In this document: one piece after another, positions 29,962 through 58,230 of the stretch | Numbering within the stretch: position 1 is the stretch's first letter | Layout of the letters: every line of letters begins with the position of its first letter | NCBI RefSeq assembly: GCF_001618865.1 | Contig: NZ_CP015136.1 | Coordinates: 3,383,001 to 3,447,000 of the forward strand | Length of the DNA: 64,000 nucleotides | Source: Luteitalea pratensis | GTDB taxonomy: Bacteria; Acidobacteriota; Vicinamibacteria; Vicinamibacterales; Vicinamibacteraceae | Reading direction: 5' to 3' | The notes under the pieces: model-generated | What the model saw: the letters and a program-made list of their open reading frames with translations, nothing else | Databases searched by the model: none | What the model was told of the DNA's origin: nothing | Position numbers and translations under genes: made by a program

Positions 29962-30706
29962 GGCGTTGGTGCATGGCTTGGACCGTTGAGGCCGTCGAAG
30001 CCGCTGGCATGTCGGCGGCCCGCCGCGGCATGATCGTGCGATGAAGTCGCGGGTGCATCCCACGTACAAGACGCACTATCGGGTGGGGAATTGGCGGGCG
30101 TACGAGTGCGCCCTCGTCAGTCGGGGCGACGTGACGCTGTGGCTGTCGCCCGAGGCCAGGGCTGCCTGGATCGTCCCGCCGTCCGGTCAGCCGGGCGGGC
30201 AGCAGCGGTTTTCAGACGTGGCCATCGAAACCGTGCTCACGCTCCGGCTGCTGTTCCGCATGCCATTGCGCCAGACGGAGGGTTTCGTCCGGTCAATCCT
30301 GACCGTGATGCGCGCCGGTCTCGACGCTCCTGACCACACGACGCTCTCCCGCCGGAGTCAGCTGTTGGACGTGGTGCACAACATCCCAGCCACAGGGCCG
30401 CTGCATGTAATCGTCGATCGCACAGGACTCTCAGTGGTGGGCGAAGGGGAGTGGGCCGCCACGAAACATGGCGGACGGGGCAGACGAGGCTGGAAGAAGC
30501 TGCATCTGGGTGTCGGCCGCTCCGGTGTGACCGTCGCGCACGTGCTGACCGAAGCGACGGTCGATGATGCGATCGATCTGATCGGGGCCGCCGTTGGCGA
30601 TATTGCCAGCGTCACGGCGGACGCCGCCTACGACACAGTCGCCTTCTATGAGGCCGCGAGTGGGCGACACGCGCAGGTCGTCGTCCCGCCCATCACGACG
30701 GCAAGG
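29962..30706 (+). mobile_element. IS5-family element, copy A, truncated
   Basis: The left terminal repeat GGCGTTGGTGCATGGCT is at 29962-29978. Transposase starts at 30041. The element ends where copy B begins at 30707, and its own 3' part and right terminal repeat are absent. Upstream, 29706-29961 holds no supportable gene. Confidence 0.8.
30041..30706 (+). pseudogene. IS5-family transposase, 3'-truncated
   Basis: It aligns residue by residue with the intact transposase at 30796 from MKSRVHPTYKTHYRVGNW to VVVPPITTA (about residue 222), including the first two catalytic regions (VIVDRTGLS and VTADAAYDT). The C-terminal part with the catalytic Glu is lost; the reading frame continues into the left end of the inserted copy B. 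The coding difference from copy B (several dozen substitutions) shows they are different members of one family. Confidence 0.85.
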
Positions 30707-38156: not shown

Positions 38157-38815
38157 GCGCGGCGTTGGTGCACGGCTGCTGGGCCCGCCGATAGGCCGGA
38201 TGTCGAGCGGCTGTCGTGTCGACTGCCGCGCCGGATGATCGTGCGATGACGTCGCGGGTGATCCCACGTAAAGGACTCGCGGGCCCGATCCACCGCGCGC
38301 CACTGGCTGTTCCGCACGCGCTCGACTGCGTCGCGACGGTGCGTTGCCTGGTGGCGTTCTAGTCGACGAGCACAACCGCGTGCGGCAGCACGCGGCCACA
38401 TGCCAGACGAGATGTACGTCGGGGCAGGGGACGCGATCCCGGCCGAACTCGCGGCACGCTCGGACGCCGCGCGGCGAGCACGCCTGCAGGCCAACCGTTC
38501 GCGCGTTCTCTGGCCTGGATGACGAGAACTCGCGCAGGAAAGTTGGGAATGTCCGTGCACTCAGCCCGGCAGAAGGTCTCGGGCTACCACCGCAGGCCCG
38601 CGTCGAGAACGCCTTCTTCCGCTACAAGTCTCCATCATTGGCGATGACCTTCGCGCCCGGAGTGTCAGTGGCCGGGATGTCGAGGCGAGCCTTGCGTGCC
38701 GCATCCTGAACCAAATGACCGCGCTTGGGAGGCCCGAGTCGCACGCGATCAGTCGTGGACGAGACCGCGACTTGAAGGACCTGCGACCCAGTGTGAGCCA
38801 TGCACCGACGCCGCG
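38157..38815 (+). mobile_element. IS5-family remnant with internal deletion and foreign insert
   Basis: The left end (38157-38173, one base off the 17-bp terminal repeat) is followed by the decayed transposase start near 38245 (ATGACGTCGCGGGTG). Unrelated sequence fills about 38275-38519. The ~40-bp repeat lies at 38521-38560. The transposase C-terminus resumes at about 38575 (GYHRQ, then RVENAFFRYKS in decayed frames) and runs to about 38760. The right terminal repeat is near 38797-38815. The two ends belong together but the middle was deleted and replaced. Confidence 0.65.
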
Positions 38816-41727: not shown

Positions 41728-44700
41728 TCAAAACAGGAACTTTACGCCGAACTGCATCTGGCGCGGCGTGCTCACGGTCGACCTGATCGTGCCGAAGTCG
41801 GTGCTTCCCAACTCTGCGTTCGGCAGATCGAAGGACGGATGGTTCGTGAGATTGAAAACCTCCCAGCGAATCTGCAGCCGGCGAGTGCCTCCCAAGCGAA
41901 TGTCTTTCGTCAGAGCGGCGTCGAGATTGAAGTACCCGGGACCGAGCAGCGTATTTCGCCCCAGGTCACCGTAGCGGTACGTACCGTCGGCGCTGCGCGG
42001 TATGGCGAACGCCGCGGGACTCAGCCACGCGTCAGCCGTCGGATGTGCCACGGTTGGATCACCCACCAGATCGGGCCGCCAGACGCTGCTGCCAACCGTG
42101 ACTCCGAGGCGATTGGTGGGGTCGAGCACCGTGACGTCGAAGTGGGCCCCTGACTGCGCCGAGACGATCGCTGACAACTGCCAGTCGCCGAGCAGGACGC
42201 CCAGAGGACCTTCGCGCTGCAACCAGCGGCGACCGGCACCGAACGGGAGATCGACGGCTGCGTGTGCAACCAGCCGGTGCCGCCGATCGAAGGCTGAATT
42301 CCCTCGATCGCCCTGAAGGTTGCGCCAGTCCTGGATCACCATGAAGGAGGAGTTCCCTTCACCCCCGGCGAGTTCAAGCACGTCGTCAATCGAGTGGCTC
42401 CAGGTGTAGGACAAGGAGCCTTGCCAACCGTGGCTCAGGCGCTTGTCCATCGTGGTCTGCAGGCCGTGGTAGCTGGCGCTCCCCAACGAGTCAGCCATCG
42501 TGATCGCACCCAGCGAGGGAATCATCCTTCGGTCGCGTTCGGTGAGGCTGTCGCCGGGTCCCGCGGCGTTCATGTTGTAAGAGCGTTGCAGGTGACGCGA
42601 CGATGAGCCGACGTATGCGGTCGTCACAACCCACGATGGCCCGAGCTGCCGCTGTACGTTCAGATTCCACTGCGAGATCGTGGGCGTGGTGAAGTCTGGG
42701 CTCCAGACGTTCCACGAAAGATTCGCGGGCATCTGTGTTGCGCTTCCGAGCAGGCTTGCATCGATCCCGTCCGTCAGCTGGCCGGCCGACGCTGTTGGGC
42801 TCGAGGGCACGGTCACCTCGCGTGACTGAGGCCAGTTGTTGAGCAGATGCACAACCGGGGCGTAACCTTTCGGCGATCCGTAGAACAGTCCCCACGCGGC
42901 CCGCGCCGTCCAGACCTGTGCGGGCTGGTAAGCCAGGCCGATCCGCGGCGCCCAGTTGTTGGTATCGGTGCGAACGAGCGCCCTATCCGACCACGACCGG
43001 CCGAACTGCCCGGCCCGGATCACCCGCACCTCGGGAAACACCAAGGAATCGAGTGCACTCATCCGATCGAGGGCGTCGAACCTGGGACTCGCCAGTTCAT
43101 ATCGCAGCCCCAGATTGAGCGTCAGCTGCCGGGCGATGCGCCAGTCATCCTGCGCGTAGAACATGTAGTCGCGCTCACGCAGGTTTCCGAATTGGACCGT
43201 GCTGAACTGACGGCCGCTGGTCATACCCAGCAAGAAGTCACCGAAACTCGAGCCTGTGAATTTGCCGTTGAAGTTGAAGATGCCGCGGGCGTGCTGGGCG
43301 CCGACGCTGTCGGACCTGACCCACCGCAGATCCGCGCCTGTCTTGATGGTGTGCGCGCCCCTGGCGATCGAGAGATTGTCGAGCACCTGGAATGTTCCGG
43401 CCGTCTTGTCGTTCGGGTTGAACTGAAACTCACCAAGCGGCGCGTACGAGAGGTCTCCCCCCAGGTTGATGCGAGACAGCCCTTCGATCCCAGGCACGCT
43501 CTCGACGTGTAATCCGTAGTCGTCATTCGGATAGCCGCGGCCAAGCGGTTGCTTGTTGGTCCTGAGGCTGTTGACGCCCAGGCGTATTTCGTGGACGACG
43601 GATGACCCGAAGACATGCGTTTCCGAGAGCGCGACGTTATACGCCGTGTTGTCATCGCGGGAGAAGTCGTTGTTGCTGCCGCCGATGCCGGGCACCGGAA
43701 ACGACCCGAGCCGCTCGCCGCTGAAGGCCATCCAGCTGCCGCGGACAAACATGCGGTCTCGAGAAGAGAGCATGTGGTCCAGGCGCATGTCGTACTGGCC
43801 GCGCAGCCGCTTGTGTGCCGGGTTGGACGAGTGATTGGCACGCGTCGTCCCCTCGAAGTTCGGTGCGGGCCAGAGATCCAGCAACCGCGCTGCAACCGGA
43901 TCCCATCGGTCGCGCGGGATGCTGTTTCCCGGAAAAGGAGCGCGCGTCGCCGGATCGAGGACAACGACGACTCCCGGATCGAAGGTCCCGTCCCGTTCAG
44001 CGAGCGCCGGCACCGTCAGGAGGCGGTTTTCGGCGGTGTTCACGCTGCTGATTTCAAGGCTGGCGAAATAGAAGGTGCGACTCCTGAGAATGGGCCCGCC
44101 GAACGTGAATCCGAACTGGTGCTGTTGCAGCGCGTCCGGGTCCGCCTTGCCATCGCCCGAGCGATCGAAGTAGTCGAAGGCGTCGCGGGCGTCGAAGATG
44201 TCATGGCGGAAGAATTCGTGCGCCGTGCCGTGGATGTCTTTGGTTCCCGATTTGATGCTGACGTTGACCACGGCTCCGGCGCCGCGCCCGAACTCGGCGG
44301 TGTAGTTGCTCGTTTGAACCTGGAACTCCTGGACCGCGTCGATATTCGGCACCAGTACCTGCGCCTTCCGGTCCTGGAAGCCCATCACCTGCGAGTTGTT
44401 TGTCGACGCCGTCGAGCAGGAAGTTGTTCTGGACCGCCCATTGCCCATTACTGTTGAAACCGGACTCCCGTTGAACGTGGCCGAACGCGGGCAGCACTCC
44501 TGCGGCGAGCGTCGCCAGCTGCGAAAAGTTCCGGCCGTTCAGCGGCAGCTGACCGATCTGCGAAGCGCCGATCGTATGCGACAGGGAGGACGTGTCGGTC
44601 TGGAGAAGCGGCGCCGGGCTGCGAACCGAAATCGTATCGTTGACGGCTCCCAGTTCGAGCTGAACGTCCAGCCGCGCGCGGGTGTTCGCGTGAACCTGGA

Positions 44701-44971
44701 TCGGGTCGCTGACCGCCCGCTTGAATCCGGGGACTTCGATTGAGACCCGATACAGCCCGATGACGAGCGGGGCCAGCACGTAGTGGCCGTCGGCGTTCGT
44801 CCTGGTCTGGATGGTCACCCCGGTCTCGGCCGTGGCCGTGATGGTGACGGCAGGGACGAGCGCGTCGGTCGGGTCCGTGACCCGGCCCGCGATCATCCCC
44901 TGGTCCTGCTGCGCGGAAGCCGGCGCGACCGCCAGGGCCAGCAACGAGAGGCCGATAGTAACCCGCGTCAG
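41728..44971 (-). pseudogene. Oar-like TonB-dependent receptor, frameshifted
   Basis: About 1080 residues when two frames are joined. N-terminal frame: hydrophobic signal (TIGLSLLALAVAPASAQ), carboxypeptidase-regulatory-like domain (MIAGRVTDPTDALVPAVTIT), and plug start (IGQLPLNGRNFSQLATLAAG, NNFLLDGVD). The frame breaks near 44400: GVDNNSQVMGF is restored if one A is removed. The long frame carries plug and barrel (VQEFQVQTSNYTAEFGRGAG, GFTFGGP) to a C-terminal aromatic end QMQFGVKFLF. Such receptors sit in the outer membrane and import large ligands. There is no ATG, GTG or TTG at the expected start; CTG 44971 is the best in-frame option. The regulator gene just upstream ends at 44968 on the same strand. 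Confidence 0.8.
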
Positions 44972-46905
44972 CGTCCCACCCGGCTTAAGATGGCCTGGAA
45001 TGCCGGTTCCGACGCGATCGTCTTGAACGGCGGATATTGGTTGAACTGTCCCAGTTCCATCGCGTGATCTTCGAATGCGCGCTGCACGGCAGCCAGGGCA
45101 GGCGCTCTTTCGCCGAGCGCGTCGTGAATCAAGCCGATGCCGAACCAGGAGACGTACTGATCCTGCTTGTGGGCCTCGAGCTCCTTCAGCACCTGGCGAG
45201 CGTCCTCCGCACGCCCGGCCACAGCGTAGGCATAGCCCAGGTAGGCCTCGACCCGTGAATTGTGTCCCTGCGCCGGCCGTGCGGCGACTTCGAGCTCCGG
45301 GATCGCGTCGGTGGGACGGCCCATCGCCACCAGGGTGACCCCAATTTGAAAGCGGACACGACGGTTCGCAGGGCTCACCTCCAGCGCACGGCGCAATTCC
45401 CTGATGGCACGGTCGTATTCGCCCGCGGCCCGACACGCGGTGCCGACGCTCACCTGTGCGCCCACCGAGAGTGGATCGAGCGCGCGTCCGCGCTCCGCCG
45501 CGGCAATAGCCTCCTGGAAGCGTCCACGGCGGATCAGTGAGTTGCTGATCGCTTCAGGAGCGTCATCGAGACCGCTCAGGATTGTGGCCCGCTCCAACGC
45601 CTTGTCGCCCTCCTCCCAACGCCAGTGATACAGGTGGAGGACCAGGCCCAGCGCCCGGTGCGCCCTGGCAAGGTTGTCGTCGAGCTGCAGCGCCTTGCGC
45701 GCGGCCGCTTCCGCCTTCGGAACGACCTGGTGCGGCGAGTAGGGACCGCCGTAGAGGAATTGCACCTGCACCAGCGCGAGCTCGGCCCACGCTGCAGCAA
45801 AGTCGGGCTGGATGGCGACCGCTTCCTCGAGATACCCGACGGCCCTGCGGAAACTTTCGTGTCGCTGCAGACCTGTCGCCCTGAGGCCGAGGAGGTATGC
45901 CTCGTACGCCTTCGGATTGATGGTCTGTGCGCGCGATGCAGCCGGCCGCCGCCGCCCGGCCGCGACGGCCACGTCCGACGCGATCTGTTGCTGCAGGGCG
46001 AATACCCTGCTTATGTCGCCTTCGTATACATGCGCCCAGAGATCGCGATCGGTCGCCGCACGAATCAGTTTCACCGTGATCCGAATGGCGTCGCCGGATC
46101 TCTGCACGGTGCCCTCCACGACGCCCTCGACATTGTCGAGCTCCGTCCGGATCTGCGGAAGTCGCTTGACCGTCTGTTTGTATTGCCGCGCCGACGTTCG
46201 TGAGATCACGTCGACGCCTTCGACCTGGGCGAGATGCGCCGTGACCGCATCGGTCACGCTGTCGGCGAAGACGTCCTCCGCACGGTCTCCCGTCAGGTTC
46301 TCGAACGGGAGCACCACGAGGGACCGGATCGGTACTTCGGCCGTGGCGGCGTCCCGAGGCCTGAGCAGCCCGCCGCGGTAGGCAACTGCCGCCATCCCGA
46401 ATAGCAGGACGAACAGGAGCGCAGCCGCACGCCAGGGACGCGCGCGCGACGGCGGGTTGATCCGCGCAGGCACGGGCAGAGGCTCGGCCGGCGAGACGGG
46501 TGTCACGTCAACGGCCAGCACCGGCAGCAGCGCGACCGGACGTTCCCGCGGATCCGCCGGCGGCGCCGAACCCCCGACGGGCGCCACGAAGCGGTAGCCG
46601 TGCCGCGGCACCGTCTCGACGAACCGCGGATTGTCCGCCGAGTCGTCCAGCGCCTCTCGTAGCTTCCGCACCGCGCTGTTCAGGCCGACATCGAAGTCGA
46701 CAAACGTATCCGCGGTCCACAGCAACTGGCGGAGCTCGTCGCGCGTGACCAATTCACCGGGGCGCAGCAGGAGCGCTCGCAGTATCTGGAAGGACTGGTC
46801 GGGAAGACGGATCTTGAGGCCGTGCCGACGAAGCTCTCCCGATCGGACGTCGAGTTCGAATACTCCGAAGCGAAACACGCGCGCGTCCGGCGTCGGGGAA
46901 TGCAT
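44968..46905 (-). CDS. Membrane winged-helix regulator with TolB-N-like and TPR domains
   Basis: 645 residues from ATG 46905, preceded by AGAAGGGGG; the longer frame to 47229 runs through the promoter region and is rejected. Order: winged helix (about 9-105, ending PRHGYRFVAPVGG), transmembrane helix (about 165-185, AALLFVLLFGMAAVAY), SLVVLPFENLTGDRAEDVFAD domain (about 205-330), then TPR repeats to the end. This is the CadC-like layout with a protein-binding outer part. It probably controls the adjacent receptor and/or the divergent secreted genes. Its 5' end and promoter are duplicated at 49.7-50.2 and 52.1-52.5 kb. Confidence 0.9.
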   Translation of the reverse strand: MHSPTPDARVFRFGVFELDVRSGELRRHGLKIRLPDQSFQILRALLLRPGELVTRDELRQLLWTADTFVDFDVGLNSAVRKLREALDDSADNPRFVETVPRHGYRFVAPVGGSAPPADPRERPVALLPVLAVDVTPVSPAEPLPVPARINPPSRARPWRAAALLFVLLFGMAAVAYRGGLLRPRDAATAEVPIRSLVVLPFENLTGDRAEDVFADSVTDAVTAHLAQVEGVDVISRTSARQYKQTVKRLPQIRTELDNVEGVVEGTVQRSGDAIRITVKLIRAATDRDLWAHVYEGDISRVFALQQQIASDVAVAAGRRRPAASRAQTINPKAYEAYLLGLRATGLQRHESFRRAVGYLEEAVAIQPDFAAAWAELALVQVQFLYGGPYSPHQVVPKAEAAARKALQLDDNLARAHRALGLVLHLYHWRWEEGDKALERATILSGLDDAPEAISNSLIRRGRFQEAIAAAERGRALDPLSVGAQVSVGTACRAAGEYDRAIRELRRALEVSPANRRVRFQIGVTLVAMGRPTDAIPELEVAARPAQGHNSRVEAYLGYAYAVAGRAEDARQVLKELEAHKQDQYVSWFGIGLIHDALGERAPALAAVQRAFEDHAMELGQFNQYPPFKTIASEPAFQAILSRVGR

Positions 46906-46944
46906 GGCCCCCTTCTGAGCGAATGGAGCGCAGTGTACCCCGTC

Positions 46945-47085
46945 CTTCGCCAAATACCAATCAGGCGCGGATCTAAATCCTTGTTTCGCAGCGACTTGCG
47001 AAGTGACATCGAAAACAGCCGCCAGCCATTGTCGCGGCGCTGCAGACCGAGGCATGGTTGGCGCGCCGAACGTGATGGCTTCGGA
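46945..47085. promoter_or_regulatory. Divergent promoter module, copy P1
   Basis: Non-coding sequence between the regulator and the plus-strand gene at 47172. It contains conserved blocks GCGGATCTAAATCCTTGTTT and AAGTGACATCGAAAACAGCC that are nearly identical at 50007-50155 and 52360-52500. It presumably holds promoters for both directions, and operator sites for the regulator are plausible. The GGATCTAAATCC block is palindromic (GGAT-CTAA-ATCC). Confidence 0.6.
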
Positions 47086-47171
47086 TTCCCTCAGCGAAGC
47101 TGCTCTGCTGCTGTGGCGTGAGTAGCGTGATCGGGGCGCCAGCCGCTGTCCCGTTGACAAGGAGAACAACG

Positions 47172-47708
47172 ATGTTTGACTCAGCTCACGCGAACGGTCG
47201 ATGGTCATCCGCAGTACGCATCGCCACAACGGCCTTGATCACGGCGCTTCTGGTCGCGACCACCACGATGGCGAGTGCTCAAGGCACAAATGCTGGCGGC
47301 ACGAACCACAAGGCGTTGGTCGGCAGCTGGCTGGAAACGGTGACGTTCCCGCCAGAGACTGGCCGCCCGCCGCTGAAATCCCTTGGCAGCTTTCACGAAG
47401 ACCACACCATGGTCTGTAGCGATCAGGGCGCGGTCACGACGGAGCCACCTTCCGTGTTCACCTCGTGTCATGGAGCCTGGTCGCACCTGGAGGAGCGCAA
47501 GTTCGCATATACGTCGTTCGAGCTGATCTCGGACCTGGCAGGAAGCCTCCTCGGGTACCTCAAGGTGCGAGGCATCTACACGGTGTCTCAGTCCGGGAAT
47601 GACTACACCGGCACCTCGCTGGCGCAGATCCTCGACGTTGACGGCAACGTCGTCTTCTCCGCCGAAGTGACGAACGCAGGGAAGCGAATCCTGGTCGAAC
47701 TGCCCTGA
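47172..47708 (+). CDS. Secreted protein, unknown function (lipocalin-like)
   Basis: 178 residues from ATG 47172, behind AAGGAGA. Signal peptide (VRIATTALITALLVATTTMASAQG), then a domain with KALVGSWLETVTFPPETGRPP at its start and YTGTSLAQILDVDGN near its end, resembling lipocalin-like or DUF-type beta-barrel proteins. First gene downstream of promoter copy P1. No catalytic motif is visible. Confidence 0.7.
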   Translation: MFDSAHANGRWSSAVRIATTALITALLVATTTMASAQGTNAGGTNHKALVGSWLETVTFPPETGRPPLKSLGSFHEDHTMVCSDQGAVTTEPPSVFTSCHGAWSHLEERKFAYTSFELISDLAGSLLGYLKVRGIYTVSQSGNDYTGTSLAQILDVDGNVVFSAEVTNAGKRILVELP

Positions 47709-47779
47709 GGTTGTGCAGTCGACGATTGCCACGGCCCGGCGATGCTAGCGTCGTCTCCGGTAGAACGCGGGGAGGCATC

Positions 47780-48277
47780 ATGTTCAAGTTGGATCTCATG
47801 ACCACAACACGGCACGCGGCAACGCCTCTGATGAGCATGTTCATGCTCATCGCGGCCCTCAGTGCGGGCGCATGTGGAGGAGGCGGTTCGTCGCCGACGG
47901 CACCCTCGGCGCCCACGGCAACCGCCGCCCCCAACCCAACCCCGCCAGCCTCGCCGACCATGCTCGCAGTGTTCAAGGATCCTGCGTCGTCGTTTTCAAC
48001 GTCGGACGTGCGGGATGCTCAGGGGCGGGTTGTGCGATTCGACATCCCGACCAATTCGCTCGTGTGGACCGCTGATGGACGCATGTTCACAGGCTATCCG
48101 GTCCTCGACACCTACTACATCCGCCAGGATAAGTTCTTCCAGGTTCGCTTCGGCACCAACAATGGGGAGCAGCGCGCCTATTTCACCGAAGCCGGCCGCG
48201 GAACACTCTGCGACATCCAGGCGGTAGGAGCGGGCGTGGTCATCACTGCGACGGACCTGCCGGTGCCGAAATCGTAG
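47780..48277 (+). CDS. Small lipoprotein, unknown function
   Basis: 165 residues from ATG 47780, behind GGAGG. Lipoprotein signal with lipobox-like LSAGAC, then a low-complexity linker rich in Ala, Pro and Thr, then a C-terminal domain (VRDAQGRVVRFDIPTNSLVW, FFQVRFGTNNGEQRAYF) of unknown fold. The gap from the preceding gene is 71 bp on the same strand, suggesting co-transcription. Confidence 0.65.
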   Translation: MFKLDLMTTTRHAATPLMSMFMLIAALSAGACGGGGSSPTAPSAPTATAAPNPTPPASPTMLAVFKDPASSFSTSDVRDAQGRVVRFDIPTNSLVWTADGRMFTGYPVLDTYYIRQDKFFQVRFGTNNGEQRAYFTEAGRGTLCDIQAVGAGVVITATDLPVPKS

Positions 48278-48310
48278 CGTTCGCGCGGCCTTCAACTCGA
48301 GGAAACCCCG

Positions 48311-49561
48311 ATGGCCAACTGCCTCCGGCTTCTGATCGCATGCGCTCTCGTCGGGATCCCCTCCGCGGCGCACGGCGACGTCATCACCGACTGGAACACT
48401 GCAGCACTGAACGCAATCAGGGTGAACCGGACGTCGCCGCCGGTTGCGTCGCGCGCGCTCGCGATCCTTCACGCGTCGATGTACGACGCGGTGAACGGTA
48501 TCAGCCGGAGCCATGAGCCCTACTTGGTCCAGAGCGCTGTTCCGTCCAGTGCGTCCAAAGAAGCGGCCGCCGCGGCTGCAGGACGGCGCGTGCTGATGAC
48601 GCTGTTTTCCCGAGAGCCGCACCGATTCGACCAGCTTTACCTCGTAACGCTCGCCGGCATACCGGACGGCCCGCATAAACGCGCCGGTATTGCGTGGGGT
48701 GAATATGTGGCCGCCCAGATTCTCGCAGCGCGAGACAACGATGGGTCCGCCGCGATAGTTCCTGTGCCTGAAGGCGGTGCTCCTGGCGCGTGGGTGGCAA
48801 TGCCGCTCCCATACCTTCTCCCCCAGTGGGCATTCGTGCGGCCGTTTACGATGCCGGCGAGTGACTCTTTTCGGCCGGGTGGGCCGCCAGCGCTGGACAG
48901 TGCGCGGTACGTGGCTGATTTCAACGAAGTGAAGACGCTTGGCGCCGCCGTGGGCTCTACTCGCACCGTTGACCAGACTTTGATCGCCCTGTTCTGGGCG
49001 GACGGTGCCGGAACCGAGACACCTCCCGGACACTGGAACAGCATCGCGCAAGTGGCTGCGGGGATGTCGGGCAATACCTTGGAACAAGACGCCCGGTTGT
49101 TTGCGTTGCTGAACATGGCCATGGCGGACGCGGCAATTTGCGCGTGGGACGCCAAGTATCAGTACATGTTTTGGCGTCCGATCACCGCCGTTCGAAACGC
49201 AGACGACGATGGCAACCCTGCGACCGCTTCAGACGCAGCGTGGCAGTCGTTGATCGCCACGCCGCCGTTTCCAGAGTATGTGTCCGGGCACAGCGCGTTC
49301 AGTGGTGCTGCCGCCACCATCCTGACCAGGTTTTTCGCTTCCGATGAGGTCACCTTCTCCACGCGGTCGGATTTTCTGCCTGGCGTTGTGTGGCAGTTCA
49401 CCAGTTTCTCCGCTGCCGCGCGTCAAGCCGCGGAGAGTCGCGTGTACGGAGGGATTCATTTCAGGAGCGCGAGCGAGGACGGGTTAGCCGGAGGAATTGG
49501 GATCGGCAACTGGGTGGCCGACTTCTTCCTGCAGCCGAAAGGAAACCGTTCGCGGAAGTAG
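48311..49561 (+). CDS. Vanadium-dependent haloperoxidase/PAP2-superfamily protein
   Basis: 416 residues with a signal peptide (LRLLIACALVGIPSAAHG). Phosphate/vanadate-binding motifs are in order: KYQYMFWRPITAVR (about 277-290), EYVSGHSAFSGAA (about 323-335) and ESRVYGGIHFRSASEDGLAGG (about 377-397), i.e. K-x6-RP, PSGH-like with the Pro replaced by Val, and SR-x5-H. Family members oxidise halides with peroxide or act as acid phosphatases; sequence alone does not separate these. It lies 33 bases after the small lipoprotein and could share its transcript. Confidence 0.85.
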   Translation: MANCLRLLIACALVGIPSAAHGDVITDWNTAALNAIRVNRTSPPVASRALAILHASMYDAVNGISRSHEPYLVQSAVPSSASKEAAAAAAGRRVLMTLFSREPHRFDQLYLVTLAGIPDGPHKRAGIAWGEYVAAQILAARDNDGSAAIVPVPEGGAPGAWVAMPLPYLLPQWAFVRPFTMPASDSFRPGGPPALDSARYVADFNEVKTLGAAVGSTRTVDQTLIALFWADGAGTETPPGHWNSIAQVAAGMSGNTLEQDARLFALLNMAMADAAICAWDAKYQYMFWRPITAVRNADDDGNPATASDAAWQSLIATPPFPEYVSGHSAFSGAAATILTRFFASDEVTFSTRSDFLPGVVWQFTSFSAAARQAAESRVYGGIHFRSASEDGLAGGIGIGNWVADFFLQPKGNRSRK

Positions 49562-49689
49562 GTTGGCGCGCCTGACCCTGTGTGAATCGCAGTCGCCTGC
49601 TGCGCCGGAAGCGGCAGCAGCAACTCATGCGCGATGACCTGTGAATGACGGCGAGGTCGGCCAGCGACACGGTTGTCACGTGAACTGCC

Positions 49690-50006
49690 TGCGTCGGCGG
49701 CCGATCGACCGGACGTTCCCGTGGATCCGCCGGCGGTGCCGAACCCCCGACGGGCGCCACGGAGCAGTAGCCGTGCCGCGGCACCGTCTCGACGAACTGC
49801 GGATTGTCCGCAGAGTCGTCCAGCGCCCCTCGTAGCTTCCGCCACGCTGTTCAGGCCGACATCGAAGTCGACAAGCGTATCCGCGGTCCACAGCAACTGG
49901 CGAAGCTCGTCGCGCGTGACCAATTCACCGGGGCGCAGGAGGGGCGCTTGCAGGATCTGGAAGGCCGGGTCGGGAAGACGGATCTTGAGGCCTTTCCGAC
50001 GAAGCT
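49690..50006 (-). pseudogene. Winged-helix regulator 5' fragment, second copy
   Basis: On the minus strand it parallels the start of the gene at 44968-46905 (LVTRDELRQLLWTADT, VDFDVGLNSV, MPRHGY with VAPVGGSAPPADPRERPV), with indels that break the frame and the first ~25 codons deleted. The sensor half is absent. The conserved promoter copy P2 directly follows. This is a partial duplication of the regulator's 5' end. Nothing else is supportable in 49562-50207. Confidence 0.8.
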
Positions 50007-50155
50007 CTCCCGACCTTCGCAGAATACCAATCAGGCGCCAATCTAAATCCTTGTTTCGCAGCTACTTGCCAAGTGACATCGAAAACAGCCGCCAGCCATT
50101 GTCGCGGCGCTGCGGACCGAGGCATGGTTGGCGCGCCGAACGTGATGGCCAGCGG
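50007..50155. promoter_or_regulatory. Divergent promoter module, copy P2
   Basis: Nearly identical to 46945-47085 over about 140 bases, including ATCTAAATCCTTGTTTCGCA and GACATCGAAAACAGCCGCCA. It sits directly upstream of the plus-strand gene at 50208. Confidence 0.6.
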
Positions 50156-50207
50156 GGCACACCCCATTGCGTCGCTTACGGTCCCCAGTGCCCAACGGAA
50201 GGAACTC

Positions 50208-51419
50208 ATGAAGAACGCGCGTCTCCTGGTCTTTGTCGCCTTGCCACTTCTGTTCATCGCGCCGGGTCTGCCCGGGTCGCGGCTTTCGGCGGACTACGAT
50301 CAAACCACCGAGGCCATCGCTGGTGAACAGAGCGCTGCGGTCGTGTCAACGATTGCGTTCACCAGCACGCGCGACAACCACGGCCAACCTTGGGCGGTTC
50401 CGCCGATCGTCGGAGGAGAGATCTACTTCATCGACTACATGACGGATGGCAGCTTCTCCGTGCCCCGGCGGGTGACGTCGAATACCTACACCGACATCTT
50501 CCCGGCGTTGTCGCCCGACGGCCGGGGAAAGATCGTCTTTGACAGCAATCGGTTCAGTGCCCCTTCAGAGCCGGTCAACACCTCAGACCTGTTCGTGATG
50601 AACCACGACGGGACCGAGCCGTTGTTCTTGACACGGGGCGGATCGCCGACCTGGTCGCCAGGCGGTGCGGATGGTCAGCCGGCGCGAATGATCGCATTCC
50701 ACGCGTCGGCGCCGGGTGTCGGACTGCCGATCAACCGCTTCCCAGGATCGGCCACCGTGGACAGCGACATCTTCGTGGTGAACGTCGACGACGTGCTCGA
50801 ACACGGTGCCGTGCCGCAGAATCTCACCATCGACCGGGCGGCGACGGTGGACGATGATCCGAACTGGTCACCCGATGGCCGACGAATCATCTTCACCAGT
50901 TACGTCCCCGACCCATCCACCAACGTGACGTCGGCCGAAATCTACATCATGAACGCCGACGGGACCGGCGAGCCGCAGCAACTCACCGGGTTGGGTAATC
51001 CAATCGTGGGTGGCGTGGCAATCATGGGTGGCGAATTTGGTGACGCTGAGAAGATCGAGAAGCGCGGTCCCGCCTGGTCTCCTGATGGCACGCGCATTCT
51101 GTTTGCGTGCAGGCCGCTAGCACTCCTCCCCATTCCCGTCGAGCGATGGGTGCCCACGACGCCTTTCGAGATCTGCGTGATGGACGCGGTCGCCAATAGT
51201 CCGATAACGCAACTCACCCTGAACAACATCGACGAGTTGACGCCGACTTGGTCGCCGGACGGCCGGCAGATCGTCTTCCACCGGGCCCCGTCCAACCAGC
51301 TCTGGGTCATGCGAGCCGACGGCACGAACCTGGTGCCGCTCGCCGAAGCGGCGTCCTCGGGGTTCAACCTCCTGGCGACGAGCTGGGGCGTCGTCAAGGT
51401 GGACAATCGCGCGCGGTAG
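50208..51419 (+). CDS. Secreted TolB-like PD40 propeller protein
   Basis: 403 residues from ATG 50208, behind AAGGAA. Signal peptide (LLVFVALPLLFIAPGLPGS), then PD40/TolB repeats (IFPALSPDGRGKIVFDSNR, DDPNWSPDGRRIIFTSYV, YIMNADGTGEPQQLT, LTPTWSPDGRQIVFHRA). The product is expected to be secreted or periplasmic; its ligand is unknown. It is placed behind promoter copy P2 and is paralogous in layout to 52536. Confidence 0.85.
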   Translation: MKNARLLVFVALPLLFIAPGLPGSRLSADYDQTTEAIAGEQSAAVVSTIAFTSTRDNHGQPWAVPPIVGGEIYFIDYMTDGSFSVPRRVTSNTYTDIFPALSPDGRGKIVFDSNRFSAPSEPVNTSDLFVMNHDGTEPLFLTRGGSPTWSPGGADGQPARMIAFHASAPGVGLPINRFPGSATVDSDIFVVNVDDVLEHGAVPQNLTIDRAATVDDDPNWSPDGRRIIFTSYVPDPSTNVTSAEIYIMNADGTGEPQQLTGLGNPIVGGVAIMGGEFGDAEKIEKRGPAWSPDGTRILFACRPLALLPIPVERWVPTTPFEICVMDAVANSPITQLTLNNIDELTPTWSPDGRQIVFHRAPSNQLWVMRADGTNLVPLAEAASSGFNLLATSWGVVKVDNRAR

Positions 51420-51533
51420 CACGACTGGATGTTCGACTTGGTGAACGTGGTGTAGCGGTCACCATACATATCGCGATCACGAGATCGCGGGCGCCAACGA
51501 CAACCGTCGGATTCATCACAAGGAGATCACGCC

Positions 51534-52118
51534 ATGTCTGTCCTCGTCATCACCTCGAGGTTCGCGCTTGCCGTTGTTGCTGCGACAGCGGTCTCGGCCT
51601 GCTCCGGCGAGTCGCCAGTCGCGCCGACGTCCGCCGTTGTTGGGGCGGCCGCCGAGCACAACGCGAGGCCCGGTCAGGGTGTCCCTGGTACGTATGAGCT
51701 CACGTTCACCACCTACCGCATCAACACCTTGACCGAGGTGTCGAGTCTGGTTGTGAGCAGCGAGGAACTGACCCTCAAGGCGTACGTCACGGACAGCGCC
51801 GGCCAGCCCGCGACGGCGGGCAGCGTGACCTTCGAGTACTGCTCATACAAGAAGGGGCCCGCCAACGACATCAGCCGACCGGACGAGGCACCGCTCGAAG
51901 CCTGCGCGGAAGGCACCGGAAGTTGGGCGCGGCTAGCCTCGATCTCGGTGACTGAGCAGCGCTGTCCGCGTCTAGGTATCGGCTACGCCTGCTACAACTT
52001 CGGCATCGTACGGATCCCCAGAGAGGTCGGCTTCCGCATGCGCTACGACCCGAAGAACAGCGGCATCGCGAGCGGGGGAACCTTGCCGAAGAACTTCGTG
52101 TGGGTCGCGGCCTCCTGA
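51534..52118 (+). CDS. Putative lipoprotein with Ig-like domain
   Basis: 194 residues with a signal peptide (VITSRFALAVVAATAVSAC; Cys 23 a likely lipidation site). The rest has Ig-like features (LTLKAYVTDSAGQPATAGSVTFEYC), as in bacterial Ig-like repeats, and four to six cysteines that may form disulfides. Function unknown. It follows 50208 by 114 bp on the same strand. Confidence 0.7.
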   Translation: MSVLVITSRFALAVVAATAVSACSGESPVAPTSAVVGAAAEHNARPGQGVPGTYELTFTTYRINTLTEVSSLVVSSEELTLKAYVTDSAGQPATAGSVTFEYCSYKKGPANDISRPDEAPLEACAEGTGSWARLASISVTEQRCPRLGIGYACYNFGIVRIPREVGFRMRYDPKNSGIASGGTLPKNFVWVAAS

Positions 52119-52147
52119 GCGGTCGCGCAAATCAGGACCGCAACGAA

Positions 52148-52330
52148 TAGCAACTGGCGAAGCTCGTCGCGCGTGACCAATTCACCGGCGCGCAGCAGGA
52201 GCGCTCGCAGGATCTGGAAGGACTGGTCGGGAAGACGGATCTTGAGGCCGTGCCGAGGAAGCTCTCCCGATCGGACGTCGAGCTTGAATACCCCGGAGCG
52301 AAACACGCGCGGTGTCGGGGAACGGCTCGC
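52148..52330 (-). pseudogene. Winged-helix regulator 5' fragment, third copy
   Basis: The minus strand encodes PRVFRSGVFKLDVRSGEL, LKIRLPDQSFQILRALLL and ELVTRDELRQLL, matching the first 70 codons of the regulator at 44968-46905. It then breaks into unrelated sequence at about 52148. It keeps the N-terminus that copy two lacks. Confidence 0.8.
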
Positions 52331-52359
52331 TTCTGAGCGTAGGGAGCGCAGTGTACCCC

Positions 52360-52500
52360 GTCCTTCGCTGAATCCCAATCAGGCGCGGATCTAAATCCTT
52401 GTTTCGCAGCTACTTGCCAAGTGACATCAAGAACAGCCGCCAGCCATTGTCGCGGCGCTGCGGACCAAGGCATGGTTGTCGCGCCGAACGTGATGGCCAA
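52360..52500. promoter_or_regulatory. Divergent promoter module, copy P3
   Basis: It matches copies P1 and P2 closely (GGATCTAAATCCTTGTTTCG, GCCAGCCATTGTCGCGGCGC) and precedes the plus-strand gene at 52536. Confidence 0.6.
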
Positions 52501-52535
52501 CAGGTAACCGCGTCGTTTCAGCCACAGGAGTAATC

Positions 52536-53594
52536 ATGAAGACCACCGGACACGAACACCCTCGCCTGCTCGTTTCGACCCTCGCCGTTCTCTCGGTGGC
52601 CTGGCTTGCCGCGCCGCTTGCGGGCCAGGAAGACGCCAACGACGGCTTCATCCTGTTCACCACCGACCGCGACAATCCCTCTGACGCGGGCATGTGCCGC
52701 AACTGCGAAGACATCTACGTGATGTCGCCCGATGGAACGAACCCGACCCGCCTCACGCATGGTGGCGGAGCCCCAACCGATGCGGCTGCCTACAACAGCG
52801 GTGGCGCCGACTGGTCCCACAGCAAGAAGCTGGTCGCGTTCCAGAGCAATCGAGTGAATCGTGTTCCGCAGATTTACCTGATGAACCTCGACGGCAGTGA
52901 ACAGCAGGTTCTGGTCAGCCTTCCAGGTGGCGCGGCATTCCCGAGCTTCTCGCAAACTGGCAACGAGCTCTGTTTCCAAAGCCAGGCGAGCCCGAAGGAC
53001 ATCTACATCGTGAACGTCCATGGCACCGGTCTGACCAACCTCACTGAGCCCTACCGAAAGCCCGGGCCGCTCGGAGAACCGCCCCCGTTGACCGGCGACA
53101 GCAGCCGCTGCGACTGGTCACCAAAGCGGAATGCGATCGCATTCATGAATGGTGATGATGGCGCCCAGGAGATCTTCGCGCTCGACGCGGATGGAACCGG
53201 CCTCCGCAGATTGACGACCGCCAGCGGCAGCGACGCCAACCCGGCATTCTCGCCTCAGGGTGACCTGATCGCGTTCGAGAGCAATCGCGATGGCACACCC
53301 GAGATTTACCTGATGAACGCCGACGGCACTGGAATCCCGCAGCGACTGACCGACTTCAGCGCCGAGCCGACGCCGAGCAACGTCAACGTCAGCAAGCCGA
53401 CCTGGTCACCTATGGGAGATCGGATCGCGTTCCACCGCCGTGTCGGCGCACAGGGTGTGCGCGGGCACCTCGAGGTCTACACGATGAACGCTGACGGCAC
53501 CAACGTCTCGCAGATCACGTTCACGACGCCGTCGCCAGGCTTCAGCGGCTTTCCGAGCTGGGGCAAGTGGTCGGCGGACAGCATCCCGCAGTAG
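52536..53594 (+). CDS. Secreted TolB-like PD40 propeller protein
   Basis: 352 residues with a signal peptide (LLVSTLAVLSVAWLAAPLAG) and a chain of TolB/PD40 blades (IYVMSPDGTNPTRLTHGG, QIYLMNLDGSEQQVL, ANPAFSPQGDLIAFESNR, EIYLMNADGTGIPQRLTD, EVYTMNADGTNVSQITF). Predicted to be periplasmic or secreted. The gene follows promoter copy P3 and lies 28 bases ahead of a third PD40 gene. Confidence 0.87.
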   Translation: MKTTGHEHPRLLVSTLAVLSVAWLAAPLAGQEDANDGFILFTTDRDNPSDAGMCRNCEDIYVMSPDGTNPTRLTHGGGAPTDAAAYNSGGADWSHSKKLVAFQSNRVNRVPQIYLMNLDGSEQQVLVSLPGGAAFPSFSQTGNELCFQSQASPKDIYIVNVHGTGLTNLTEPYRKPGPLGEPPPLTGDSSRCDWSPKRNAIAFMNGDDGAQEIFALDADGTGLRRLTTASGSDANPAFSPQGDLIAFESNRDGTPEIYLMNADGTGIPQRLTDFSAEPTPSNVNVSKPTWSPMGDRIAFHRRVGAQGVRGHLEVYTMNADGTNVSQITFTTPSPGFSGFPSWGKWSADSIPQ

Positions 53595-53622
53595 CTCGCA
53601 CCCGAACGTTCCTGGAGGAGTC

Positions 53623-55404
53623 ATGAAGAAACTGGGTGTCATCTCGGTTGTTCTCGGTGTGGGAGCCTTCGGCGGATACTTCTCAAGAAGAATTCTGGGA
53701 TGGCACGTGATCGCCGCGGTGCTGCTTGCGACCCACATCGGCAGTTCTTATGCAGCGGCCCAGGTGCCGGTGGGCACGATCGCCTTTGAAGCCTGTTTCT
53801 TTCAATGGGATCTCAACGAATTCTATTGTGTGACGTACCTTGGCACCGGCCACTCATTCATCGACTACGCCAAAAACCCGACGTGGTCCCCTGACGGATC
53901 CCGGATCGCGTTCGCCAGTCCGACGGGCATTTCCATCGTCAACGTTCGCGACTGGTCGACCGTAAGGCTGTCTGTGGCTGGTGAATCCCCAGCCTGGTCA
54001 CCCGATGGCTCAAAGCTCGCGTTTTCGGCAGGCGAATTGTACGTGATGAACAGTGACGGATCGAACGTGGTCCAACTGACACACGGCGTCGGCTTCCTCG
54101 GTGAGTCGGCCTGGTCGCCCGATGGGCAGACAATCGCTTTCGACTGCGAGATCGAGACGGCGAATCGGGACATCTGTGTCATCCATGCGGACGGTACGGG
54201 CCTGACGCGGTTGACCACGGACGTGAACTACGATGCCGCGCCCGCGTTTTCGCCGGACGGCCTGAAGATCGCGTTCGCCGTCGCCGATCCAGATTATTGG
54301 CCCTCGAGCCCTTCGAGGTCGCCGACCGTCTTCGCCATGAACGCGGATGGCACCGGCAGGATGCCGATAGGTCCCGGTGACCACCCCGCCTGGTCGCCCG
54401 ACGGAGCGCGGATCGCGGTCGCGCTCGGTACCGTTGGCTGCCCCGAGGAGATGTTCCGCTGCATGATTATCGCCACCATGAACGCGGATGGCACTGCAGT
54501 CGCAACCGTGGGCGGTTTTGGAGATCGTCCTGCGTGGGGAGTCGCCTCAGGCCCGATCGCCTGGATGATCGCTAACTGTCGTCTCTCCCCGTGCACGTTC
54601 GACGCGTCCGGCTCGTTTGGCGGCGATCGCGGCTTCGCGGGCTATACCTGGGACTTCGGCGATGGGACGAACGGATCCGGACAGGCCGTGAGCCATGAGT
54701 ACGCCGCGTATGGAACGTACTCGGTGAAGCTCACGGTGACCGATACGGCAGGAGTCACGGCCACTCACGCTGTCACGGTCGTTCACGCGAACGTACCTCC
54801 CACTCCGTCGTTCGCGGTGGCCTGCAGTGGTCTGACATGCGCGGTCGACGCGAGCGCGTCGTTCGACGGGAACGGCTCGCTCACGGGTTATTTGTGGACC
54901 TTTGGGGATGGCACCGGCGGAACCGGCGTAACGGCGAGCCACACCTACACCTCCAGTGGTTCCTACCCTGTGCGTCTGTCCGTGACTGACAACGATGGCG
55001 CGTCGACAGCGTTGACCCGATTCATCACCGTATCCGCACCGGTGCCGCCCCCGCCCCTGCCGCCCCCGCCGGCGCCATTGCACGTCGGCAATCTGCACGG
55101 CGCGAGTACCAGCTTCCGGAATGCGTGGACGGCCACCGCGACGGCCACCATCCACGACGGCGGCCATGCCAATCAGGCCAACGTGGTGGTGAGCGGTGCG
55201 TGGAGCGATGGCGGCACAAGGTCGTGCACGACAAATCAGGACGGCCGCTGCATCGTGACGCGGACCGACATCGGCAAGAGGACGAGCAGCATCAGTTTCA
55301 CCGTCACGGGCGTGGCGAGACCGATGTATGTCTACGATTCCCAGCAGAATCACGACCCTGATGGGAACAGCAACGGCACCAGGATCACGCTGGTCAAACC
55401 CTGA
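53623..55404 (+). CDS. Secreted PD40-propeller protein with two PKD domains
   Basis: 593 residues: N-terminal signal or anchor (about 20-47, ILGWHVIAAVLLATHIGSSYAAA), TolB-like propeller blades to about residue 310 (NPTWSPDGSRIAFASP, AAPAFSPDGLKIAFAVAD), two PKD domains (about 325-390, GYTWDFGDGTNGSGQAVSHEY; about 400-470, GYLWTFGDGTGGTGVTASHTY), a Pro-rich linker and a C-terminal Ig-like/carbohydrate-type beta domain. PKD domains mediate extracellular protein or polysaccharide contacts. The gene is 28 bp after the preceding PD40 gene; GGAGGAG precedes ATG 53623. Confidence 0.85.
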   Translation: MKKLGVISVVLGVGAFGGYFSRRILGWHVIAAVLLATHIGSSYAAAQVPVGTIAFEACFFQWDLNEFYCVTYLGTGHSFIDYAKNPTWSPDGSRIAFASPTGISIVNVRDWSTVRLSVAGESPAWSPDGSKLAFSAGELYVMNSDGSNVVQLTHGVGFLGESAWSPDGQTIAFDCEIETANRDICVIHADGTGLTRLTTDVNYDAAPAFSPDGLKIAFAVADPDYWPSSPSRSPTVFAMNADGTGRMPIGPGDHPAWSPDGARIAVALGTVGCPEEMFRCMIIATMNADGTAVATVGGFGDRPAWGVASGPIAWMIANCRLSPCTFDASGSFGGDRGFAGYTWDFGDGTNGSGQAVSHEYAAYGTYSVKLTVTDTAGVTATHAVTVVHANVPPTPSFAVACSGLTCAVDASASFDGNGSLTGYLWTFGDGTGGTGVTASHTYTSSGSYPVRLSVTDNDGASTALTRFITVSAPVPPPPLPPPPAPLHVGNLHGASTSFRNAWTATATATIHDGGHANQANVVVSGAWSDGGTRSCTTNQDGRCIVTRTDIGKRTSSISFTVTGVARPMYVYDSQQNHDPDGNSNGTRITLVKP

Positions 55405-55808
55405 GGGACACACGCGAACGATGCGACGCGCAAGACGCGCGTCTATTGGTCGCCCTTACCTCGCCGCATATGCGCGCCGTGCCAGCTCTGCTCGACGGCA
55501 TTGCGTCTCTGCACGACCGACTCGAGTGACCAGTGTGTGTTCGCAAAGTTGGGTATACCGCGCAAGGCGACCACAGTGACCTTGACCGTGACAATTCATG
55601 GCGCGGCCGTTTGGGGAGTCGGACCTTTTCCGGATTGCGTATGCCTTCGAACAGGGGGCGCGGCTGATGGTAAGCGCGTCTACACGTCGGCCAGTAATCA
55701 CTATCCTGAGGTGATAGCACCAAATCGCGAATCACGATCCGTCGACAGTAGGTCGCGTGTAGTCCGGAGGCCGTGCTCATTCAAGCACGCTGTGGCGTGG
55801 AGACTTCC
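55405..55808. other. Gap without a supportable gene
   Basis: About 400 bases between the PKD protein and the amidohydrolase. Short ORFs on both strands lack domain features, ribosome-binding sites and similarity to neighbours. It probably carries the promoter for the amidohydrolase gene. Confidence 0.5.
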
Positions 55809-57785
55809 ATGAAGAGTAAGCAGAGGCATGCGGCATTCTCTTGTGCGGCGGTTCTGGCGGTGATGACGACGACTGCCGACCAATCGGTCGTCGCAACATC
55901 GTCGGGCGCGATCCTTTTGGAGGGAACCGTCGTCACGATGAATGCCGCACGCGAGGTCATTCCCAACGGCCGCGTGCTGGTGCGCGATGGCCGCATCGTC
56001 GCGGTGTGGCGAGGATCAGCGCCGCCACAGGGAGTCGATGTGGCCGACGCCGTACGCGCGCCTCTTGGCGAGCATGCATACATTTATCCGGGGTTGATCA
56101 ATCTGCACGACCATCCGTTCTTTGGCGTGCTACCGCTGTGGCAGCCACCCCGTTCTCATGTACAGCCGGCGATGGGCAGACCACTCGGCACGGAGCCCTA
56201 CGGCAATCGTTATCAGTGGAACCAAGTGGCCCTGACACAACCCGAGGAGGCAGCCCGCTTGGTCTCGAACCCCTCGACGATGCTCACAGACGGCGCGGCT
56301 CTCGCCAGCTTGGTTGACGTGATCAAGTTCGCCAAGGCGCGCATGATTCTCGGCGGCACCACGACGACGCAAGGTGCGGGATCGAATGCCGCCTACGACT
56401 CGCTTCTCGCCCGGACCGTCGAAAGCGCCAATTTCGGTCGACGACGGATCTTCAGTCGTGTCGGCTCAATCGGGTCGCTGAGCTCGAGTGATCAGGCGCT
56501 GCTGCAAGGCGGGATGGCTGCTGGACTCGTCGATGCATGGTTGATCCACCTCGCGGAAGGCGTTCGAGATGCCGATCGTCGCGCCGGCGATGTCACGTCA
56601 TCGCGTGCGGAATTCACGGAGCTCAAGGCACGGCAGCTCCTGAGCGATGCGACCGTCGTCCTTCACGGCGTAGGCCTCGAGCCACAGGATTTTGTCGAGA
56701 TGGCGCATGCTCGCCCAGCGCGCGCCGATGGCGCTGGTGACGGACGTGGGGCGAAGCTGGTGTGGTCGCCGCTCTCGAACCTGCTGCTCTATGGAACGAC
56801 GACGGCAATCTATGATGCGCTTGCGGCCGGCGTCCTCGTCTCGCTGGGGACCGATTGGGCTCCGAGTGGATCGGCAAACCTGCTGACCGAGCTGAAAGTT
56901 GCCGACCGCACGCTGCGAGACGTGTTGCTGCTGGGCGGCCGCCGCGACATTGTCCCGTGGTTGGCGGTGTCGGGCGCGAAAGACGCCGGCGCGAAGGAGC
57001 GCGCGTTGGATCAACTGCTCGTTGAGATGGTAACGATCAACCCGGCGTTGGCGGTACGCTGGGATGATCAGGTCGGCTCGATCGAAGCTGGAAAGGTCGC
57101 CGACATTCTGGTTATCGATACCAAGCCACTGCCCGAGATTCCACGGGGTATACCCGCGTCGCCGTATCGACGACTGATCGATGCGACCGAGCGTAATGTG
57201 TCGCTGGTGATGGTCGGAGGAGCCGCGCAGGCAGGCGATGTCGCCGTGATGTCAGCCCTCAAGCCTGGGGACTTCGATGTTGTCGCCGGTGGTGCCGGTT
57301 GTTTTGAAAAGGCCATCGATGTCACTGCGCCAGCACTGCCTGGAGGTAGTGACAGCTTCGACCAGGTGGTGGCCGGCATTACCGAGGCCTTGCGTGCGCT
57401 CGGTGGCGATCACCCGCCCGCCGGGGGTGGGCCCTCGTCGCCGTTTGCGAATACGTGGAGTTACCTCAAGGCGCGAATTCCTGGCGCAAGTGATTTGCCG
57501 GATCTGACGTTCAATCTCGGTCTCGCCTTTTATTTCGGGAGCACGGCGGATGGACGAGTCAACCTGGAAGCGATCAGGCCGCCAGCGCTTTTTACGGTCG
57601 ATGACCATTGGTGGTTCGCGACGCTCGCGTCGGTGCGTGATTCGGTTAGTGATTTGACGGCCGATACGGACCCGCCGTACGCACTCTATCTCTCGAACTC
57701 GAATCAGGAGACGGCATTTGGAAGTCCGTTCGCGGCTGACCTGCTTCACAACCGTTGGTACGAGGTGCCATGCGGTGTTCACTAA
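55809..57785 (+). CDS. Amidohydrolase-superfamily metal-dependent hydrolase
   Basis: 658 residues from ATG 55809 with a probable signal peptide (SCAAVLAVMTTTADQSVVA). Amidohydrolase motifs: YPGLINLHDHPFFG (HxH metal site), DAWLIHLAEG, VVLHGVG, SLGTDWAPSGSANLL (catalytic Asp) and the closing GSIEAGKVADILVID. The core is close to cytosine-deaminase/imidazolonepropionase-like members, while the last ~190 residues are an extra domain. Substrate is unknown. Confidence 0.82.
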   Translation: MKSKQRHAAFSCAAVLAVMTTTADQSVVATSSGAILLEGTVVTMNAAREVIPNGRVLVRDGRIVAVWRGSAPPQGVDVADAVRAPLGEHAYIYPGLINLHDHPFFGVLPLWQPPRSHVQPAMGRPLGTEPYGNRYQWNQVALTQPEEAARLVSNPSTMLTDGAALASLVDVIKFAKARMILGGTTTTQGAGSNAAYDSLLARTVESANFGRRRIFSRVGSIGSLSSSDQALLQGGMAAGLVDAWLIHLAEGVRDADRRAGDVTSSRAEFTELKARQLLSDATVVLHGVGLEPQDFVEMAHARPARADGAGDGRGAKLVWSPLSNLLLYGTTTAIYDALAAGVLVSLGTDWAPSGSANLLTELKVADRTLRDVLLLGGRRDIVPWLAVSGAKDAGAKERALDQLLVEMVTINPALAVRWDDQVGSIEAGKVADILVIDTKPLPEIPRGIPASPYRRLIDATERNVSLVMVGGAAQAGDVAVMSALKPGDFDVVAGGAGCFEKAIDVTAPALPGGSDSFDQVVAGITEALRALGGDHPPAGGGPSSPFANTWSYLKARIPGASDLPDLTFNLGLAFYFGSTADGRVNLEAIRPPALFTVDDHWWFATLASVRDSVSDLTADTDPPYALYLSNSNQETAFGSPFAADLLHNRWYEVPCGVH

Positions 57786-57839
57786 TCTAGTCCCACCGAC
57801 GGCGCCCTGGCCGGCAGCAACCGTTCTCGGATGTGGAAG

Positions 57840-58095
57840 CGCTCGGGCGGCATCAACGGAAGAAGGTCGCGGGCAGGCGCGCGTCGAGAACGCCTTCCTC
57901 CGCTCAAGTCAATCATTGGCGATGGGCTTGGTGCCCGCAGTGTCGGTGGCCGGGATGTCGAGGCGAGCCTGGCGTGCCGCATCCTGAACCAGATGACCAC
58001 GCTTGGCAGGCCCGAGTCGCACGCGATCAGTGGTTGACCAGAGGGCGACTTGAAGGACCCGCGATCCAGTGTGAGCCATGCACCAACGGCCCTGC
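57840..58095 (+). mobile_element. IS5-family 3' remnant
   Basis: The transposase C-terminus begins near 57831 (DVEALGRHQRKKVAG, then ARVENAFLRS in a shifted frame) and continues to the decayed end (GRPESHAISG). The right terminal repeat GAGCCATGCACCAACG is at about 58075-58090. It lacks a 5' half, which is present as a separate remnant at 41067-41280. Confidence 0.75.
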
Positions 58096-58230
58096 GTAGG
58101 CGCACCCGCCGCAGATCCCGTGACAACTTCAACGCCCGAGCCGTCCGCCTGGTGTTCGACGGCAAGACGTTGGCGGCCGTCGCCCGCGAACTCGACTCGA
58201 GTCGGCCACCGGCGGTGGGGAGACTGACTT
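58095..58230 (+). pseudogene. Relic of an IS3-type OrfA (HTH) protein
   Basis: The plus strand reads RRRSRDNFNARAVRLVFDGK then TLAAVARELDSS, resembling the N-terminal HTH of IS3-family OrfA proteins. It starts directly at the IS5 right end and stops where cassette 5 begins. Frame continuity is short and the remainder is absent. Confidence 0.45.

Follow-up and report, generated by a model that had tools for sequence, protein, structure and literature searches.

A candidate control region repeated together with the 5' part of a winged-helix regulator gene in front of exported-protein genes of Luteitalea pratensis

Introduction

How does near-identical non-coding DNA come to stand upstream of different genes of one genome, and does it bring those genes under common control? 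The question is raised by the soil bacterium Luteitalea pratensis, whose genome is a single contig of 7,480,314 bases. In the stretch analysed here (bases 3,383,001-3,447,000, 64,000 nucleotides, hereafter the window), a 141-bp non-coding block is present three times within 6 kb, before the genes that begin at 47172, 50208 and 52536. A previous sequence-only reading had proposed that a promoter/operator module was duplicated and thereby placed three gene groups under one regulator, forming a regulon built by copying control DNA. The features of the locus are listed in Table 1, in window coordinates unless a second cluster, L027, is named.

Table 1. Features of the repeated units and their surroundings.
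Feature	Position	Strand	Basis
Intact winged-helix (Trans_reg_C)/TPR regulator gene, 645 codons, CadC/HilA-like layout	44968..46905	-	Pfam, hydropathy
Regulator part present again in copy 2	46479..46842	-	blastn self-comparison, alignment; in copy 3 only from 46721 on
Block 1, non-coding control region	46939-47079	.	alignment; no codon-position bias
Core copy 1	47015..47039	.	pattern search
ECF sigma-factor gene, 5' end fragment	47076..47153	-	91% to L027 8056-8133
Exported-protein gene 1, without Pfam family	47172..47708	+	ORF, hydrophobic N-terminus
Lipoprotein-like gene, without Pfam family	47780..48277	+	ORF, in-frame ATG
PAP2/vanadium-chloroperoxidase-like gene	48311..49561	+	Pfam PAP2 3.1e-9
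Broken regulator fragment, copy 2	49653..50013	-	blastn self-comparison, alignment
Block 2	50009-50149	.	self-comparison, core search
Core copy 2	50085-50109	.	pattern search
PD40 beta-propeller exported protein	50208..51419	+	Pfam PD40 1.9e-23
End remnant of halocyanin/cupredoxin-like gene	51421..51458	+	87% to L027 8983-9020
Segment with lipoprotein gene 51534-52118	51423..52146	+	92.4% to L027 11658-12381
Broken regulator fragment, copy 3	52149..52356	-	blastn self-comparison, alignment
Block 3	52357-52497 (feature to 52499)	.	self-comparison, core search
Core copy 3	52433-52457	.	pattern search
PD40 beta-propeller exported protein	52536..53594	+	Pfam; 52602-53644 is 87% to L027 9102-10144
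PD40/PKD exported protein	53623..55404	+	Pfam
Amidohydrolase gene start	55798..56136	+	89% to L027 12384-12725; Pfam

The repeated unit

The three 141-bp copies align without gaps and differ at 8 (copies 1 and 2), 10 (copies 1 and 3) and 9 (copies 2 and 3) positions, which bears out the earlier description of about 140 bp of near-identical non-coding DNA at three places. In a whole-genome search the window copies match one another with E values of 3e-57 or lower, and chance is therefore excluded as the origin of their likeness. Strong matches genome-wide amount to four places (E < 1e-8), all others having E values of at least 0.29. The fourth place, at bases 992,303-992,373, holds the one further copy that a search for additional blocks, suggested by the sequence-only reading, brought to light; it is diverged. 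Short matches (27-36 bp, E 0.001-0.006) also occur in three relatives, one in each, among 60 genomes including this one, but the flanking DNA has no longer resemblance and they were set aside.

Each block is joined leftward to a minus-strand piece of the same winged-helix gene, intact once and broken twice, as had been described. The repeated unit carries up to 364 bp from the 5' part of this winged-helix/TPR gene and consists mostly of regulator coding sequence, not only of the 140 bp. The earlier observation is thus confirmed, and larger than first described. The second copy of the regulator part is 91% identical to 46479-46842 over 364 columns; its frame is broken or shifted and the start-bearing segment of about 100 bp is gone. 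The third copy, from 52149 through block 3, is 90.5% identical to 46721-47079 over 359 columns, and it has lost the start codon and has short gaps. On the right, block 1 stops at the sigma-factor fragment. Copies 2 and 3 may share a few extra bases there, and the right edge is not quite common to all three.

The regulator and the genes behind the blocks

Membrane one-component regulators of the CadC/ToxR type have an N-terminal winged helix, a membrane segment, and a C-terminal sensor-like domain. The window regulator resembles them in its N-terminal winged helix (Pfam Trans_reg_C at residues 31-106; 57.4 bits against a gathering cut-off of 26.2, which places it among OmpR/CadC-type proteins), in one predicted transmembrane segment at the hydropathy peak from residue 163, and in a C-terminal sensor-like domain. 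It departs from CadC in that its C-terminal part is made of TPRs and in that it scores 44.3 bits with the NCBIfam CadC model (NF007540), far below the cut-off of 400; its score with the NCBIfam HilA model is likewise far below cut-off. No close orthologues were found, the best matches being 31-40% identical. Because the gene is divergent from block 1, the winged-helix protein would be the natural candidate reader of the window copies.

Behind the regulator gene lies a TonB-dependent-receptor-like gene (41728-45010, minus strand) that is split by a frame change near 44425. A gene of this kind lies behind the regulator in both clusters, and the counterpart at L027 3403-6684 is a single open frame of 1093 codons. 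The split gene in the window may be broken or may reflect a sequencing error.

To the right of each block stands a plus-strand gene (ATG at 47172, 50208 and 52536), and its product appears to be exported, judging by eye from the hydrophobic N-terminus without a signal-peptide tool; this agrees with the sequence-only reading. The same near-identical upstream DNA precedes genes that are themselves different. The 47172 product and the PD40 proteins belong to no common family, and the 50208 and 52536 products are identical at 112 of 290 aligned residues. The gene at 47172 has a paralogue in the same genome, 68% identical in DNA (G000:C1:2608340-2608746, G000 being this genome). The PD40/PKD gene is probably co-transcribed with 52536.

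Other features of the neighbourhood were also recorded. The lipoprotein-like family of 51534-52118 (L027 11740-12354) occurs twice in this genome and in 0 of 6 relatives of the genus and family. At 55593-55656, a 64-bp exact copy of a piece of a reading frame (G000:C1:4810179-4810242) stands alone between two genes; from its translation, we take the source frame to be amidase-like.

The fourth site and the second cluster

The fourth block lies 2.44 Mb from the window, before the paralogous gene cluster L027, and is older than the three window copies. It sits between an ECF sigma-factor gene on the minus strand (L010 754-1350, intact, with Pfam Sigma70_r2 and r4) and a plus-strand pair comprising a weakly halocyanin-like gene followed by a PD40 gene. 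The PD40 protein of this pair is 81% identical to the 52536 product. At the fourth site this counterpart is the second gene of a probable operon, whereas in the window 52536 directly follows block 3.

The two clusters share several further pieces, namely the lipoprotein segment (92.4%), the amidohydrolase start (89%), and the 5' end of the sigma gene, of which the window keeps 78 bp, abutting block 1. In L027 the lipoprotein stretch lies directly beside the amidohydrolase stretch, whereas in the window 3.65 kb (52147-55797) separate the two, an interval occupied by the third regulator fragment, block 3, and the PD40 and PKD genes. The amidohydrolase stretch of L027 looks like a remnant because no plus-strand ORF of at least 180 aa starts there. 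In both clusters the same cupredoxin-like gene end (L027 11658-11700) precedes the lipoprotein gene, an older fusion scar common to the two.

The 25-bp core

The four-way block alignment has 73 invariant columns of 120, with a longest run of 17 (permutation P 0.0044, in a test that treats columns as exchangeable and ignores the close kinship of copies 1-3). Within it lies a 25-bp core, ACAGYCGCCAGCCATTGTCGCGRCG, which matches 4 sites in the genome perfectly. Allowing as many as three mismatches added no site in this genome and gave none in 6 relatives, and the reversed pattern used as a control gave 0 matches. The degenerate core pattern had no match in a genome contig collection from which this genome may be absent. 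All four cores precede plus-strand genes, at distances of 132, 98, 78 and 59 bp from the ATG for copies 1, 2, 3 and the fourth, respectively. The term regulon implies many sites and is too broad for four core sites, three of them within 6 kb.

The older core differs from the window cores at two positions, C to T and G to A, and these occupy mirrored places in a 5-bp dyad (GYCGC, 11 bp, GCGRC). The dyad was noticed after the fact and serves as a lead towards a symmetric candidate binding site. An ECF-type reading, attempted by eye, was rejected because the core has the wrong spacing for it. The sigma-70 scan returned no promoter above threshold in the three regions, and the terminator scan was negative. 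A minus-strand sigma-70-like match seen by eye near 46931-46966 (TTGGTA, 17 bp, TACACT) agrees at 8 of 12 positions, below the scan threshold, and was not retained.

Was control DNA brought to older genes?

Homologues of two of the downstream genes carry different upstream DNA. In the relative G003, the orthologue of 50208 (75% aa identity over the best segment) has no block in its 115 bp of upstream DNA, where 74 of 300 shuffles score as well. The paralogue of 47172 in the same genome has none in about 840 bp upstream, where 279 of 300 shuffles score as well. The G003 gene has a dS of 0.69, and given this distance and only 115 bp of upstream DNA, an old control region could be unrecognisable there. 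Among the best 80 of 330 loci with relatives of 50208, the top one is 49% identical and its contig begins inside the gene, so that it offers no upstream DNA. 

Synonymous divergence gives some indication of relative age. The dS is 0.38 between the PD40 gene 52536 and its L027 counterpart and 0.14 for the lipoprotein pair, and it falls to 0.03-0.10 for the regulator fragments, over only 40 codons. Because the fragment values lie below the other two, the block copies look younger than the surrounding gene duplications; the relative timing of events in the two clusters is unrooted. Gene conversion could have evened the copies out and given them a false youth.

These comparisons support one part of the sequence-only reading, namely that control DNA was copied. 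The other part, a single regulator for the three gene groups, is not supported; it is weakened because a sigma gene, not the winged-helix gene, adjoins the fourth site.

Explanations for the copies

The explanation we favour, with moderate confidence, is that local duplication led to promoter capture in a mosaic gene cluster with a history of repeated shuffling. Two local duplications would have copied the control region between the CadC-like membrane regulator and its divergent exported-protein gene, through recombination with left ends inside the regulator gene. A promoter or operator for the plus strand would have travelled with the copied piece, the 25-bp core being its probable centre. 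The three gene sets (47172, 50208, 52536) would then respond together; that the operon at the fourth site joins them is a weaker expectation. Candidate readers of the core are the winged-helix protein, the ECF sigma factor encoded at the fourth site, and a third factor. A broader version, which we hold to be doubtful, sees the core as a stable hub of exported-protein clusters at four sites in two clusters 2.44 Mb apart, around which the adjoining regulator gene (for an ECF sigma factor or a membrane winged-helix protein) and the downstream genes are exchanged, so that a small regulon grows by hub copying and neighbour swaps.

A serious rival, possible though rather unlikely, is that the copies are passive and recent leftovers of repeated duplication, deletion, and exchange within a paralogous cluster, with no common regulation. 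Conservation of the block does not exceed that of the broken regulator fragments: differences number 9/141 against 9/122 between copies 2 and 3 (Fisher P 0.81) and 8/141 against 30/361 between copies 1 and 2 (Fisher P 0.35). Block and dead coding pieces have changed equally, and hence there is no sign of selection on the block. The surroundings, too, are rich in fragments, such as the sigma-gene piece, the cupredoxin-like gene end, and the 64-bp exact copy from 4.81 Mb. However, every surviving copy directly precedes an open exported-protein gene, and the much older fourth copy keeps the core with only two differences; the case for a function of the block rests on these two points. Transposase genes and fragments elsewhere in the window could suggest that the block belongs, as its end or its body, to a transposon-like promoter spreader. 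This reading is already disfavoured and very unlikely, since the left ends differ (49653 and 52149), shared terminal (inverted) repeats were looked for at the copies and not found, the genome has only four sites, and searches of 72,556 plasmid and 50,697 phage records gave no match.

Two further readings, both highly improbable, concern what the block itself encodes. It could be coding, as an N-terminal extension of the winged-helix protein or a leader peptide: in each of the three copies a minus-strand frame runs through the block without a stop, and the regulator frame is open to 47229. Against this, differences summed over the three pairs are spread 8/8/11 among the codon positions, 16 codon differences are non-synonymous against 5 synonymous, a gap of one base interrupts the fourth copy, and the Pfam domain of the regulator is complete without the block. 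It could instead act as an RNA element in the 5' leader, of thermosensor or riboswitch type, and the mirrored differences between old and new cores in the dyad would speak for it. Yet the folding z-scores of the four copies are -1.93, -1.21, 0.79 and 0.30, the structures differ among them, and Rfam gave no match up to E 1.

Relation to known systems

Events in which control DNA is copied or exchanged between genes go by the names promoter propagation, horizontal regulatory transfer, or regulatory switching (PMC9944727, citing Matus-Garcia 2012 and Oren 2014). The window resembles promoter propagation in having near-identical control DNA before different genes of one genome, with other DNA in that place in a relative. 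It differs in that the copies drag along a regulator 5' end, are local, and form a mosaic with a second cluster. Promoter capture brings a new gene under a promoter through duplication or deletion (PMC11111574, citing the citrate case of Blount 2012). The favoured explanation shares with it an illegitimate duplication that would join an existing promoter, here a candidate one, to another gene. Unlike the case described there, the event in the window was not caught in the act. A simple tandem duplication of the whole unit was rejected, as it would need later deletions because the genes behind the blocks are not mutual copies of comparable age.

The process, re-wiring by duplication of promoter DNA, is already known, and the locus is a probable, fresh and unusually legible case of it. 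Most known examples of promoter capture come from laboratory evolution or are inferred by comparing strains. Here one genome holds the donor (intact regulator with block), two recipients, and an older fourth copy, and the broken ends of the regulator serve as tracers, so that both the order of events and any gain of co-regulation are testable in one organism.

A search for literature joining acidobacteria, winged helix, tetratricopeptide, and TonB-dependent found none. Soil acidobacteria are described as rich in paralogous genes and mobile elements (PMC5900883). In the window, transposase genes or fragments are repeated at 30041-31740, 38592-38810 and 57822-58109 (Pfam DDE_Tnp_1_5 for 30041-30799), a sign of an insertion-sequence-rich neighbourhood.
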